Shown here: one piece after another, positions 43,939-63,670 of the stretch
Position numbering within the stretch: position 1 is the first letter of the stretch
How the letters are laid out: each line of letters begins with the position of its first letter
NCBI RefSeq assembly: GCF_002277955.1
Contig: NZ_CP018477.1
Coordinates: 124,001-188,000 of the forward strand
Origin: Thermogutta terrifontis
GTDB taxonomy: Bacteria > Planctomycetota > Planctomycetia > Pirellulales > Thermoguttaceae
Direction of reading: 5' to 3'
DNA length: 64,000 bases
Translations under genes and position numbers: made by a program
Notes under the pieces: model-generated
Databases searched by the model: none
Told to the model about the DNA's origin: nothing
What the model saw: the letters and a program-made list of their open reading frames with translations, nothing else

Positions 43939-44522
43939 TCACGGGGGACTGAAGTCCCGCGCCGAAAGCGGGGCTAAAGCCCCGCACTCCATGGAGTGCG
44001 GCGATTGATCGCCGATTTTTGGTAAAGGCTTTAACCTTCACAACCTTCCCGTTGGCCCAGAACGAAACCGGAGTAACCGCTCGGGGTGGAACCCGACCCT
44101 CCAATCCGCGCAATGGAGCGCCGCCTTCCGCGGTGGCCGTCGGCCCGGGTGGCACCGGGCCCTCCAATAAACGTGGATTCCACCCCAGCCGCGGCACTGG
44201 TAGGGGCGATTCATGAATTGCCCGTATCCCAGATTACGGGCGCTTCCGAAGGGACCCGTTCTGGAGGGACCTGCTTGTCAGGTCCGATGAACAGCGATCG
44301 TCGATCCATTCCTTCTCGCCGGGCACGACAAGCGTGCCCCTCCGAAAAAGTCCCGGAGGGACCTGCTTGTCAGGTCCGATGAACAGCGATCGATGATCCA
44401 TTCCTCCTCGCCGGGCACGACAAGCGTGCCCCTCCGAAAAAGTCCCGGAGGGACCTGCTTGTCAGGTCCGCTACACATTCCGCTGGTTTAAACGGTAGGG
44501 ACAATTCATGAATTGCCCCTAC
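43939..44522. repeat. Palindrome-module cluster between hydrolase and galK
   Basis: The order is: GACTGAAGTC hairpin, GGGGCTAAAGCCCC hairpin, CACTCCATGGAGTG, GGCGATTGATCGCC, a decayed AAGGCTTTAACCTT, a GTAGGGGCGATTCATG palindrome (about 44200-44226), then three copies of the GGACCTGCTTGTCAGGTCC hairpin, two of them in a 122-base direct repeat with a GGGCACGACAAGCGTGCCC hairpin. It ends with another GGGACAATTCATG palindrome (44494-44522). No TGAC-type terminal inverted repeats are visible. There is no coding capacity beyond chance. Confidence 0.85.
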
Positions 44523-51175: not shown

Positions 51176-52015
51176 ATCCCCATTTCCCCACTTTTCCTCT
51201 GGCAACGTGCATGCGTACCTCCACAGGGGTTTGGTGGGAGCGAAATACCACCCGGAGGGACCCGCGTGTCACGTCCACCTGTCGGAGGGATCTGCTTGTC
51301 AGGTCCGCTACACATTTCGCTGATTAAACGGTAGGGGCAATTCATGAATTGCCCCTACAACGTCGGAGGGACCCGCCTGTCGGGTCCGATGAACACCGAT
51401 TGATGACCCATGCCACTTCACCGGGCACGACAAGCGTGCCCCTCCGGAATTCTGGGGGACACCTGTCGGAGGGACCTGCTTGTCAGGTCCGTCATTCTTC
51501 GTTCGATCATCCATTGCCATCCCGCCGGGGACTGAAGTCCCGCGTCGAAAGCGGTGCTAAAGCCCCGCACTCCATGGAGTGCGGCGATTCATCGCCGCTT
51601 TTCGGTGAAGGCTTTAGCCTTCACAACCTTCGCGCTTGCGGTTGTTTTGCCGAGATCACGAAAACGATTCCCGGGTAGGGGCCGTTCATGAATTGCCCCT
51701 ACAACGTCGGAGGGACCCGCCTGTCAGGTCCGATGAACACCGATTGATGACCCATGCCGCTTCACCGGGCACGACAAGCGTGCCCCTCCGGAATTCTGGG
51801 GGACACCTGTCGGAGGGACCTGCTTGTCAGGTCCGCCGTTTAACGTTTGATCATCCATCCCTATCACCGGGCACGACAAGCGTGCCCCTCCGAAGGACGT
51901 TTCCCATTTCGCGGACACCATAAGGATTCACCGGTACGGGCAATTCATGAATTGCCCCTACGACGCCTTTAGGCCGAGCTATGTCGCAGGTTTTTGCAAA
52001 AGTGGGGAATGGTCA
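51176..52015 (-). mobile_element. Long palindrome element, copy D
   Basis: Read on the minus strand, the right edge begins TGACCATTCCCCACTTTTGC (52015 downward). The other edge is ATTTCCCCACTTTTCC near 51181-51196, giving imperfect inverted ends. Inside are three GGGGCAATTCATG palindromes (about 51331-51358, 51676-51703, 51933-51961), five-hairpin and GCTTGTC-hairpin modules, and a GACTGAAGTC-to-AAGGCTTTAGCCTT block (about 51528-51634). No flanking duplication was recognised. It fills most of the proA-tyrA gap. Confidence 0.72.
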
Positions 52016-55985: not shown

Positions 55986-56804
55986 ATGGCAAAACCACGC
56001 GTTTTGGTGCTGCGAGCACCGGGAACAAATTGCGACGTTGAAACCGCCTATGCCTTTGAACAGGCGGGAGCGATTGCGGAACGCCTGCACATCGCCAGGC
56101 TGCTGGAACGGCCGGCCCTCCTTCGGGATTTTCAGATTCTTTGCGTGCCCGGTGGTTTCAGCTATGGAGATGACGTGGCCGCCGGCCGGATTCTGGCCCT
56201 TCAAATTCGGCACCATCTGCTGGCTGCGATCCGGGAATTCCACGAGCGCGATCGGCTGATCCTGGGGATCTGCAACGGGTTTCAGGTGCTCCTCAAAGCG
56301 GGGATCATCCTTCCGCCGGATTCCGACGGTAAACCTGTGGCTACCCTGACATGGAACGACACGGCGCGGTACGAGGATCGCTGGGTGTACCTGAGCGTTG
56401 TCAGCGACCGATGCGTCTTCCTTCGCGGGATCCGGGAACTCCAGTTGCCCGTGGCCCACGCGGAGGGAAAATTCGTCGTCCGCGATGCGGATTGGCTCGA
56501 GCAGTTGGTTCGCCAGGGACACGTGGCGCTGTGTTACCAAATGCCAGGTCCAGCCGGTACAACAACAGCCCAGAACATCGCTTCGCAGCCGTGGCAGATG
56601 AGGGTGCCCTACCCCTGGAATCCCAATGGCTCGATGGGAAATGTGGCGGGAGTGTGCGACGCGACGGGACGCATCTTTGGGTTGATGCCCCATCCGGAGC
56701 GTTTCATCGATGTGACCCATCACCCTCGATGGACCAGGGACGAGCGGTATGATCCTCCCCACGGTCTAATCATCTTTCGCAATGCCGTCAGTTACTTTGA
56801 GTGA
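55986..56804 (+). CDS. purQ: Formylglycinamidine ribonucleotide synthase glutaminase subunit PurQ
   Basis: The 272-residue protein is a class-I glutamine amidotransferase with nucleophile C96 (GICNGFQVL) and a His/Glu pair near H236/E238 (MPHPERF). It supplies ammonia to the PurS-PurL protein encoded upstream. The coding region ends in SYFE and a TGA that belongs to a palindromic repeat (GTGAAGGCTTTAGCC...) which recurs at 57229 and 57778. The natural stop may thus have been replaced by the repeat array, though the conserved catalytic core is complete. Confidence 0.95.
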   Translation: MAKPRVLVLRAPGTNCDVETAYAFEQAGAIAERLHIARLLERPALLRDFQILCVPGGFSYGDDVAAGRILALQIRHHLLAAIREFHERDRLILGICNGFQVLLKAGIILPPDSDGKPVATLTWNDTARYEDRWVYLSVVSDRCVFLRGIRELQLPVAHAEGKFVVRDADWLEQLVRQGHVALCYQMPGPAGTTTAQNIASQPWQMRVPYPWNPNGSMGNVAGVCDATGRIFGLMPHPERFIDVTHHPRWTRDERYDPPHGLIIFRNAVSYFE

Positions 56805-58059
56805 AGGCTTTAGCCTTCACAATCTCACCGTTAATCCAGATGTAAACGGAGTACCAGTTGGGTGGAAGCCGTTCCTCCAATCCACGCCATGGATAGACGC
56901 GTCTACGGTGTCCAATCGTGACGCGTTCAATTACTCCGGGCACGACAAGCGTGCCCCTCCGAGGGTTCATTGCACGTCGTGGAAGGCGCCCCTCCCGGTA
57001 GGGGCAATTCACGAATTGCCCCTACAATGTCGGAGGGACCTGCTTGTCAGGTCCGTTTTTTCGGAGGGCCCCGCTTGTCGGGGCCGCCTCTCGGAAAGAC
57101 CCGCTTGTCGGGTCCGTCATTCAACGTTCGATCGTCCGCTCCGCTGCAGCGGGGACTGAAGTCCCGCGCCGAAAGCGGGGCTAAAGCCCCGCACTCCATA
57201 CAGTGCGGCGATTTATCGCCGCTTTTTAGTGAAGGCTTTAGCCTTCACAATCTCACCGTTGATCCAGATGTAAACGGAGTACCAGTTGGGTGGAAGCCGT
57301 TCCTCCAATCCATGCAATGGATGGACGCGTTTACGGTGTCCAATCGTGACGCGTTCAATTACTCCGGGCACGACAAGCGTGCCCCTCCGAGGGTTCATTG
57401 GACGCCGTGGAAGGCGCTCCTCCCGGTAGGGGCAATTCATGAATTGCCCCTACAATGTCGGAGGGACCCGCTTGTCGGGTCCGATGAACACCGATTGATG
57501 ACCCATGCCGCTTCACCGGGCACGACAAGCGTGCCCCTCCGGAATTTTGGGGGGACACCTCTCGGAGGGACCTGCTTGTCAGGTCCGTTTTTTCGGAGGG
57601 CCCCGCTTGTCGGGGCCGCCTCTTGGAAAGACCCGCTTGTCGGGTCCGTCATTCAACGTTCGATCGTCCGCTCCGCTGCAGCGGGGACTGAAGTCCCGCG
57701 CGGAAAGCGGGGCCAAAGCCCCGCACTCCATACAGTGCGGCGATTTATGGAGTGCGGCGATTTATCGCCGCTTTTTAGTGAAGGCTTTAGCCTTCACAAT
57801 CTCACCGTTGATGCAAATGTAAACCGAGTACCGGCCGTGGTGGAAGCCGTTCCTGCAATCCATGTAATGGATAGACGCGTTTACGGTGTCCAATCGTGAC
57901 GCGTTCAATTACTCCGGGCACGACAAGCGTGCCCCTCCGAGGGTTCATTGGACGCCGTGGAAGGCGCTCCTCCCGGTAGGGGCAATTCACGAATCGCCCT
58001 CAACCCGCACATTGCGCCCGCGGAATCTAATAGGTTTCCCCAAAAGTAGGGATTGGTCG
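56801..58059 (-). repeat. Three-unit tandem array of palindrome modules after purQ
   Basis: Three units beginning at 56801, 57229 and 57778 each start with GTGAAGGCTTTAGCC, then GTTGATCCAGATGTAAACGG, GGGCACGACAAGCGTGCCC, GTAGGGGCAATTCATG and several GGACCTG/GGACCCG/GGCCCCG GCTTGTC hairpins plus the GACTGAAGTC-CTAAAG-ACTCC block. Unit lengths are 428 and 549 bases; the second contains extra modules. The right end (about 58036-58059) is an inverted element end, CCCCAAAAGTAGGGATTGGTC; the left end is missing and abuts purQ. The whole array is non-coding. Confidence 0.88.
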
Positions 58060-58250: not shown

Positions 58251-59456
58251 ATGGAAGCTCAACTGTCCCGTCTTGCCTGCGCCCTTCTTGTCGTCGCCAC
58301 CGCGGCGGGAGCGTCCTATCCCACCCCTAATTTCATCATCCATTGCCAGGATCCCCAGCTTGCCCGGGAGCTTGGCGAAGCCGCGGAAAAATATCGAAAA
58401 GAGCTAGCGCAATTGTGGCTGGGGCGCACGCTGCCTGATTGGTCTCGGCCGTGCCCGGTGACGGTCCACGTGGGACCAAACCTTGGAGCTGGGGGGGCCA
58501 CGACGTTCGTTTTCGATCGGGGAGAAGTTTACGGTTGGAAAATGACGATCCAGGGGTCCCGGGAACGGCTCCTGGACTCGGTGCTTCCCCACGAGATCAC
58601 CCATATGATCCTGGCCAGCCACTTTCGCCAGCCGCTGCCCCGCTGGGCGGACGAGGGAGCCGCCACCACGGTGGAGCACATCAGCGAAAGGGAAAAGCAT
58701 CGTCGCATGCTCCTCGAATTTCTCCGCACCCGGCGGGGAATTCCCTTCCGTCACATGTTCGCCATGGAAGAATACCCCCAGGATATCATGCCGCTTTATG
58801 CCCAGGGGTACACACTCGCCGAGTTTCTCATTCAGCAGGGGGGACATCGCAAATTCATTCAGTTCCTGGAAGATGGCCTCAAGGACAACAATTGGGACGC
58901 TGCCCTGGCCAGGCATTACCCGTACCAGGACCTGGGTCGGCTGCAGTTAAGCTGGGTGGACTGGGTTGCCCGGGGCTTTCCCCAGCTTGCCCCGGTGTCT
59001 ATGCCGACGGCACCGGAAGCCACACTCGTGGCGGCGAATCTTGGCGGTACCACGTCTGACTGGCGGGCGAAAGGGTCATCGCAGGGTGTGGTATCTTCCA
59101 TCTACCAGCAGTTGGCAGCGTCCCCACTTGAAGTGGGGGCTTCCGCTGCCGGAAGTCCATCCAATTCGGGACAACTCGTCGCTGGTGGGCCGGGGGATGG
59201 TCCACGATATGATCCGTATAATCCCCCTCTGGTGGACGTTTCTGGGTGGCGTCCGTCGCCGATGGTGTCACCGCTTAGCGCCCAGGGAGTCTCGGTCGCT
59301 CCAGGACGGCAATCTGGGGATTGCGGGTGTGGCGGGACGTCGGCTGAGCTTCAGAATTCCAAGCCTGTGCTCCAAAACGAGGTGGCCTATCCCCAGACGG
59401 CAGAGGGGGCATCCAAGGTCCTTATGGAGTGGAACAGTCCCACCGTGTGGCGGTGA
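58251..59456 (+). CDS. Secreted gluzincin-type metallopeptidase
   Basis: The 401-residue protein has a short Sec-like signal (residues 1-21, ALLVVATAAGAS). The zinc motif HEITH spans 114-118, and a Glu at 135 (RWADEGAA), 17 residues downstream, is the expected third ligand, as in M1-like and DUF1570-type gluzincins. Residues about 150-250 remain helical. The last about 120 residues are a Ser/Pro/Gly-rich tail. Substrate and exact family are unresolved. It is downstream of the repeat array and unlinked to the ribosomal genes that follow. Confidence 0.83.
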   Translation: MEAQLSRLACALLVVATAAGASYPTPNFIIHCQDPQLARELGEAAEKYRKELAQLWLGRTLPDWSRPCPVTVHVGPNLGAGGATTFVFDRGEVYGWKMTIQGSRERLLDSVLPHEITHMILASHFRQPLPRWADEGAATTVEHISEREKHRRMLLEFLRTRRGIPFRHMFAMEEYPQDIMPLYAQGYTLAEFLIQQGGHRKFIQFLEDGLKDNNWDAALARHYPYQDLGRLQLSWVDWVARGFPQLAPVSMPTAPEATLVAANLGGTTSDWRAKGSSQGVVSSIYQQLAASPLEVGASAAGSPSNSGQLVAGGPGDGPRYDPYNPPLVDVSGWRPSPMVSPLSAQGVSVAPGRQSGDCGCGGTSAELQNSKPVLQNEVAYPQTAEGASKVLMEWNSPTVWR

Positions 59457-63150: not shown

Positions 63151-63670
63151 TGACTTATCCCCACTTTTACAAAACCCTACGACATCCCACGGGCACCACG
63201 TATCGTAGGGGCAATTCATGAATTGCCCCTACCCGGGAATCGTTTTCGTGATCTCGGCAAAACAACCGCAAGCGCGAAGGTTGTGAAGGCTAAAGCCTTC
63301 ACCGAAAAGCGGCGATGAATCGCCGCACTCCATGGAGTGCGGGGCTTTAGCCCCGCTTTCCACGCGGGACTTCAGTCCCCGGCGGGAGGGCAATGGATGA
63401 TCGAACGGTGAATGACGGACCTGACGAACGGGTGCCTCCGAGAGGGGGACCCGACGGGCAGATCCCTCCGAAATTTTTTCGGAGGGGCACGCTTGTCGTG
63501 CCCGGCGAAAGCCAGAGGATCATCCATGTTGGAACCGCGGACCTGACAAGCAGGACCCTCCACGAGGCGGACCTGACAAGCAGTGCCCGCCGGGTCGTAT
63601 TTCGCTCCCACGCGAACCCCTGTGAAGGTCCGCGCCCCCGTGGGCGAGGGAAAAGAGGGGATGAGTCAGG
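63151..63670 (+). mobile_element. Palindrome element, copy C, with inverted ends
   Basis: The left end TGACTTATCCCCACTTTT (63151-63168) and right end AAAAGAGGGGATGAGTCA (about 63651-63668) match in 16 of 18 positions after inversion. Inside: GTAGGGGCAATTCATG palindrome (about 63204-63231), the five-hairpin block in reverse order (about 63282-63380), a GGGCACG-type hairpin and GGACCTGACAAGCAG hairpins. The bases next to the ends, GCACCGACC and GCAATGACA, agree at only 6 of 9 positions, so a target duplication is not clear here. Confidence 0.78.

Follow-up and report, generated by a model that had tools for sequence, protein, structure and literature searches.

CTTGT hairpins of Thermogutta terrifontis are very probably GGAG-tagged REP elements of Y1/HUH transposases

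The CTTGT hairpins of T. terrifontis were assigned with high confidence to non-autonomous REP elements, which are organised in REPINs and BIME arrays and are present or past substrates of a Y1/HUH RAYT (TnpAREP). The assignment was based on the existence and architecture of the hairpin family, the RAYT genes found in association with it, the confinement of its copies to intergenic DNA and the covariation of its stems between organisms, all of which are presented below. A conserved 5' tetranucleotide was present, but it was GGAG and not GT(A/G)G. By the strict published wording, the hairpins are a GGAG-tagged variant and not a GTAG REP.

Copy number and structure of the CTTGT hairpins

T. terrifontis R1 has a single chromosome of 4,810,751 bp (CP018477; PMC5673643), and the window is the whole 64-kb stretch of it (64,000 nt) from 124001 to 188000. 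Each hairpin consisted of a GGAG foot on the 5' side, a 7-bp stem and the loop CTTGT. A total of 607 exact GGAG-N6-GCTTGTC sites were found in the whole genome, compared to 2 for the reversed-pattern control, and the detailed hairpin statistics were determined from the first 1.248 Mb of the 4.81 Mb. In this sample, 605 copies were recovered when up to 5 mismatches were tolerated (REPs are expected at more than 100 per genome), and 270 CTTGT sites had a fully paired stem of 7 bp or longer, against a chance estimate of about 0.1 (1948 CTTGT sites/4^7). Within the window, GCTTGTC occurred 37 times against 8.8 expected, and none of 100 shuffles was as high. No strand bias was found in the first 1.25 Mb (188 copies on the + and 171 on the - strand). 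In the two same-genus genomes searched, GGAG-N6-GCTTGTC was at background level only, and the count of GGCNNTTTANNGCC across relatives was no higher than its control.

A sequence-only reading of the window had described hairpins with a constant CTTGT loop and four stems, GGACCTG, GGACCCG, GGGCACG and GGCCCCG, and all four were found there with matching complementary arms. The kit did recur as proposed, but the "nine places" given were far too few, as hundreds of sites exist in the genome. The other loops named were also found, with TAAA and TGAA being the opposite-strand readings of TTTA and TTCA. As for constancy, the loop was mostly CTTGT but varied once it was no longer required by the search (410 of 605 copies with CTTGT).

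The foot GGAG, usually in the context TCGGAG, preceded 338 of the 364 CTTGT hairpins with at least 6 of 7 pairs in the first 1.248 Mb. Four stem classes, GGGCACG (Z, 94 copies), GGACCTG (Yt, 68), GGACGTG (Yg, 52) and GGACCCG (Yc, 50), made up 264 of these 364 copies. The constant foot and the major class GGACGTG had been overlooked in the first reading, and GGCCCCG was a rare variant with 3 exact copies in 1.248 Mb. Across the 605 copies, the loop was the most variable part of the hairpin, chiefly at its two T's. Two variants, CTCGT in 77 copies and CCTGT in 56, each differ from CTTGT by a T-to-C change at one of the middle T's and may be subfamilies.

Repeat sites within the window

The sites in and around the hairpin region, followed by the three other clusters of the window, were as follows.

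55986..56804, + strand: ORF adjoining the hairpin region, which we take to be purQ-like from its sequence
56801..56820, + strand: second hairpin of the TTTA module, GTGAAGGC-TTTA-GCCTTCAC, repeated at 57229-57248 and 57778-57797
56938..56960, - strand: REP with Z stem GGGCACG, loop CTTGT and foot GGAG (CTCC on the + strand)
56998..57025: GTAGGGGCAATTCACGAATTGCCCCTAC, a separate palindrome carrying GTAG at each end, also present at 57426-57453
57032..57054, + strand: REP with foot GGAG, stem GGACCTG (Yt, stem at 57036) and loop CTTGT
57063..57085, + strand: REP with foot GGAG, stem GGCCCCG (rare Y variant, stem at 57067) and loop CTTGT
57093..57115, + strand: REP with loop CTTGT whose foot has decayed to GGAA and whose arms AGACCCG/CGGGTCC pair over 6 bp
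57175..57222: TTTA-family inverted pair, foot to foot, GCGGGGC-TTTA (57175-57192, - strand) and GCGGCGA-TTTA (57205-57222, + strand, foot decayed to ACAGT)
57366..57388, - strand: REP with Z stem GGGCACG
57460..57540: REPIN of a Yc REP, GGACCCG (57460-57482, + strand, stem at 57464), and a Z REP, GGGCACG (57518-57540, - strand), tail to tail, start-to-start distance 58 nt
57564..57647, + strand: three direct REPs, GGACCTG (57564, stem start 57568), GGCCCCG (57595, stem start 57599) and decayed AGACCCG (57625)
57707..57771: TTTA-family inverted pair, GCGGGGC with loop TTTG (57707-57724, - strand) and GGAGT-GCGGCGA-TTTA (57749-57771, + strand)
57916..57938, - strand: REP with Z stem GGGCACG
58251..59456, + strand: 401-aa ORF on the other side of the hairpin region
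44263..44469: BIME array of the CTTGT family, Yt+ Z- Yt+ Z- Yt+, repeating every 92 nt
51254..51891: second cluster of REPs, in which Y and Z alternate with the strand
63481..63591: third cluster of REPs, composed of Z+ Y- Y-

Two copies had a 6-bp stem, at 57098 and 57630. The first TTTA hairpin (56801..56820) started in the stop-codon region of the purQ-like ORF, which ends at 56804. The GTAG-ended palindrome GTAGGGGCAATTCATGAATTGCCCCTAC was embedded in the REP arrays at 56998..57025 and 57426..57453 and looks like a different, double-footed repeat family sharing the array; GTAGGGGC-N12-GCCCCTAC gave 96 matches in 1.248 Mb with both strands counted, so about 48 sites. A 309-aa ORF (56970..57899) crossed the repeats. 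It looks spurious, arising from stop-poor palindromes, and such genes may be called by automatic annotation.

Two RAYT clades with GGAG-footed hairpins

The TTTA/TTCA hairpins were a second GGAG-footed REP family with the layout TGGAGT-GCGG-nnn-TTTA/TTCA-nnn-CCGC, in which nnn was nearly always CGA or GGC; 126 of 138 members were fully paired and 130 were preceded by TGGAGT. The T. terrifontis genome had a single Y1 transposase gene, at genome positions 896451-897032 on the - strand, which scored above the PF01797 cut-off and was identified as a RAYT by NCBIfam NF047646 (83 bits, cut-off 80). This RAYT (clade A) had intact HUH and tyrosine motifs and was flanked by GGAGT-TTTA hairpins, its own REPs in inverted orientation, and its flank also held a compensated version of the GTGAAGGC-TTTA-GCCTTCAC hairpin, GACGGC-TTTA-GCCGTC. 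Relatives with 58-59% identity in two other genera shared the GGAGT foot, lower stem and loop and had different but paired upper stems (CAA, CGA, GAA), while more distant relatives kept GGAGt with other stems and loops. The RAYT of L100, itself a relative of the Thermogutta gene, was flanked by GTAG-footed hairpins that had the same TTCA/TTTA loops, which suggests that foot and stem changed there and the loop stayed.

In a scan of public genomes with GGAGGGNCNNGCTTGTCNNGNCC, the matches listed came from a Thermogutta MAG and many Verrucomicrobia, Lentisphaerae and Kiritimatiellae, and one of those listed adjoined a RAYT gene (L190, positions 157-675). The clade of this RAYT (clade B) had seven members with support 99/97 and was separate from that of the Thermogutta RAYT. 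All seven loci were flanked by GGAG-GG hairpins with the loops CTTGT, CTTGC, CTCCGT or TCCT, and with stems that differed and were paired. One clade B RAYT with 44% identity, with GGAG hairpins beside it, was present in the same-family genome G007. The CTTGT family is the REP type of the clade B RAYT, a clade different from Thermogutta's own. The clade B RAYT was not detected in T. terrifontis (G000) or in the other Thermogutta genomes searched, so the CTTGT family looks orphaned in Thermogutta and, in T. terrifontis, has no physical link to a transposase.

The CTTGT family in Thermogutta is probably a relic population, or else one moved in trans by the remaining RAYT. That the family is no relic but is currently mobilised by the clade A RAYT of the genome, with the shared foot GGAG as the link, is possible but rather doubtful. 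The foot is common to both families, the HUH and tyrosine motifs of the resident RAYT are intact, and 255 of the 605 copies in the 1.248 Mb sample matched a class consensus exactly, all of which would fit with such mobilisation; against it, the families differ in their loops, in the lower part of the stem and in the base that follows the foot, and MAG-77 contained about 300 CTTGT copies while no RAYT was found in this fragmented MAG. MAG-77 was about 80-96% identical to T. terrifontis in aligned blocks. REP clusters were common to both, with units gained, lost or swapped within them, and neither an empty site nor a fresh insertion was seen among comparable gaps. Over 3,645 bp, the MAG-77 contig L171 matched T. 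terrifontis at 99.15% identity, compared to about 80-96% for other contigs, which reflects either contamination during binning or a recent transfer.

Inverted neighbours carry different stems

In the CTTGT family, tail-to-tail neighbours had a spacing of 58 nt and foot-to-foot neighbours one of 31-35 nt, as in REPINs and BIMEs. Among the four stem classes, inverted neighbours at most 150 bp apart joined one Y and one Z in 112 of 112 cases, and direct neighbours within 150 bp were Y-Y or Z-Z. The same Y/Z rule with exact motifs held in T. terrifontis (104/104) and in MAG-77 (23/23), and close inverted pairs of the TTTA/TTCA family joined CGA with GGC in 50 of 50. At RAYT-flanking loci (n = 20), inverted neighbours differed in 51 of 59 cases and direct neighbours agreed in 39 of 42. 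The rule was broken in genome G013, which had many inverted TTTA-family neighbours with identical stems.

At 37 °C, the long hairpin of a natural Y-Z pair was predicted at -21.2 kcal/mol versus -17.1 kcal/mol for two local hairpins, and with identical arms the predicted values were -35.4 versus -16.5 kcal/mol. The expectation that the Y-Z mismatches would favour folding into two local hairpins was rejected, because the long hairpin was still slightly better and the gap was only narrowed. Selection on inverted partners to fold separately is possible; the still favoured long fold and the departure of G013 from the rule speak against it, and descent from one asymmetric unit predicts the same pattern.

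A wider proposal is offered as a tentative one that we consider unlikely, namely that stems are selected to be self-complementary yet non-complementary to the inverted neighbour, which drives the paired changes, and that about 600 CTTGT copies outlived their own transposase and are perhaps served in trans. Under such selection, the two GGAG-footed RAYT/REP systems would keep left- and right-end hairpins orthogonal, and each end hairpin would fold alone and avoid collapse into one long hairpin. The RAYT serving in trans would belong to another clade and share only the GGAG foot with the CTTGT family.

Stem pairing between and within organisms

The search pattern used across organisms left 3 of the 7 stem pairs free, and a few of the matches (e.g. 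Halomonas, Rubrobacteraceae) may be chance. Among the matches listed, 44 organism-distinct hairpins from 28 organisms were Watson-Crick paired in 108 of 132 free-pair cells, compared to 59 in shuffles with a largest value of 72. For the 27 distinct same-pattern hairpins from other organisms among the matches listed, the covariation score was 0.304 against 0.085 in shuffles that ignore relatedness (0/500), and the double-changed cells numbered 26 against 7.8 (0/500). All four Watson-Crick pairs were found at stem position 3 across the hairpins of other organisms.

In T. terrifontis, the stem variation after removal of duplicates consisted of the four discrete classes. Among the 605 copies in 1.248 Mb, 351 stem pairs carried a change in one arm only and 18 in both arms (11.4 expected); within classes, two-sided changes were not clearly above chance. 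Individual copies were therefore not maintained by compensation, and the paired differences mark spreading versions, not the repair of single copies. As copies were not compensated in place, selection is placed on the folded strand of the element as transposase substrate and not on each copy. The compensating stems of the sequence-only reading were thus upheld between organisms by strong covariation, while within the genome they came down to four classes. Its view that the hairpin and not the sequence is selected applied at the family level, where one foot and loop recur with a variety of paired stems, but foot and loop were conserved in sequence. Loss of covariation upon removal of copies, which it took as a refutation, was seen in part within T. 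terrifontis.

Ancestry alone, in which a few founders were copied often without selection on pairing, is improbable as the source of the paired differences. The concentration of 264 of 364 copies in four classes and the near-chance two-sided changes within classes agree with it, but why every founder version is paired is left unexplained. Between organisms, it is contradicted by covariation beyond 500 shuffles, by the four Watson-Crick pairs at position 3 and by the RAYTs of two clades with many different yet paired stems; inside T. terrifontis it stands as a description of the variation. Quite improbable, too, is a mutational origin of the matching arms, in which template switching during replication copies arm to arm and perfects quasi-palindromes. 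Such a process would need no function to produce compensated stems around an unaltered loop, and 39 of the 605 copies were hybrids with arms from two classes; the 351 one-sided changes left uncorrected show, however, that correction is not frequent, and the conservation of the GGAG foot and the hairpins flanking RAYT genes are both left unaccounted for.

Genomic placement of the hairpins

The CTTGT copies were extragenic, with 7 of 551 in predicted genes versus 429 expected (simple hexamer gene predictor). Their placement tracked intergenic length in tandem (54% of copies versus 55% of length), divergent (29% versus 28%) and convergent gaps (18% versus 17%), and no preference was found for orientation relative to tandem genes (161 same, 130 opposite). 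A search of the hairpins against Rfam gave no match; with neither an Rfam family nor a context or orientation preference, they lacked the marks of a structured RNA. Between RNA and single-stranded DNA, both named in the first reading, the evidence leaned strongly to single-stranded DNA, by the HUH transposase link, the absence of an Rfam match and the lack of preference for gene direction or convergent gaps. Action in RNA (3' stem-loops, terminators, stability elements) with host selection on each copy is highly improbable: the hairpins are intergenic and could fold if transcribed, and such side effects of REPs occur elsewhere (PMC3733652), but placement follows intergenic length without regard to gene direction, Rfam gave no match and stem pairs are not maintained in place.

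Discussion

By analogy with its family, the RAYT would act on the folded strand while the DNA is single-stranded; such action in this genome, and any current movement of CTTGT copies, are inferred. It would read the GGAG foot, the loop and the fact of pairing, and not the stem sequence. The stem sequence could then drift between lineages only with both arms matching in the spreading copy, and each spreading version would leave many descendants as a discrete stem class, which would then decay without compensation. For group 3 TnpAREP in vitro, cleavage needs the tetranucleotide and a loop base, complement-swapped stem blocks are tolerated without drastic effect, and stem mismatch impairs the reaction (PMC8266576), which matches the constant foot and loop and the variable paired stems found here.

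The Thermogutta hairpins resemble the REP/BIME and TnpAREP system of E. coli (RAYT group 2/subclass 2.2) in being extragenic palindromes with a 5' tetranucleotide and hundreds of copies, in the alternation of inverted REPs with different stem types and in having one REP-flanked Y1 transposase. Alternation of y and z REPs is the E. coli pattern. The E. coli types are y, z1 and z2 (PMC8266576). Unlike the GTAG-footed E. coli elements, those of Thermogutta have the foot GGAG, perfect short stems without a bulge and a conserved loop, and the abundant family lacks a detectable cognate RAYT in the genome. Perfect 7-9 bp stems beside the tetranucleotide and inverted doublets are shared with the short REPs of group 3/subclass 2.5 in Stenotrophomonas and Pseudomonas (REPINs), for which loop base and pairing matter in vitro and stem sequence is tolerated (PMC8266576); their foot is GT(A/G)G, however, and the motifs here are DHVH/WQ in clade B and NHYH in clade A. 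Judged by motif alone, clade B (DHVH, WQ, YIRMNP) resembles RAYT subclass 2.7 and the Thermogutta RAYT (NHYH, YTHQNP) subclass 2.8 (PMC6006769). The feet reported are GT[AG]G for subclasses 2.7 and 2.8 and CnGA for class 3, and class 3 has been reported from Planctomycetes, one genome of which carries about 600 hairpins (PMC6006769).

In the REP literature searched, which covers the field incompletely, the GGAG tag was not found; the tags described were GT(A/G)G, CGTC and CnGA, and the search for GGAG-tagged REPs returned chance letter matches and known GTAG work only. REPs, REPINs, BIMEs and RAYTs are already known, while a GGAG tag and an apparently orphaned family seem to be a new variation on them. 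These hairpins provide a natural experiment on which substrate features a single-strand transposase recognises: in two RAYT clades across Planctomycetota, Verrucomicrobia and Lentisphaerota, the foot and much of the loop were kept and the stems were swapped. The orphan-looking population makes the persistence of REPs without a transposase a testable question, and the strict Y/Z rule does the same for why inverted REPs in arrays differ in stem.
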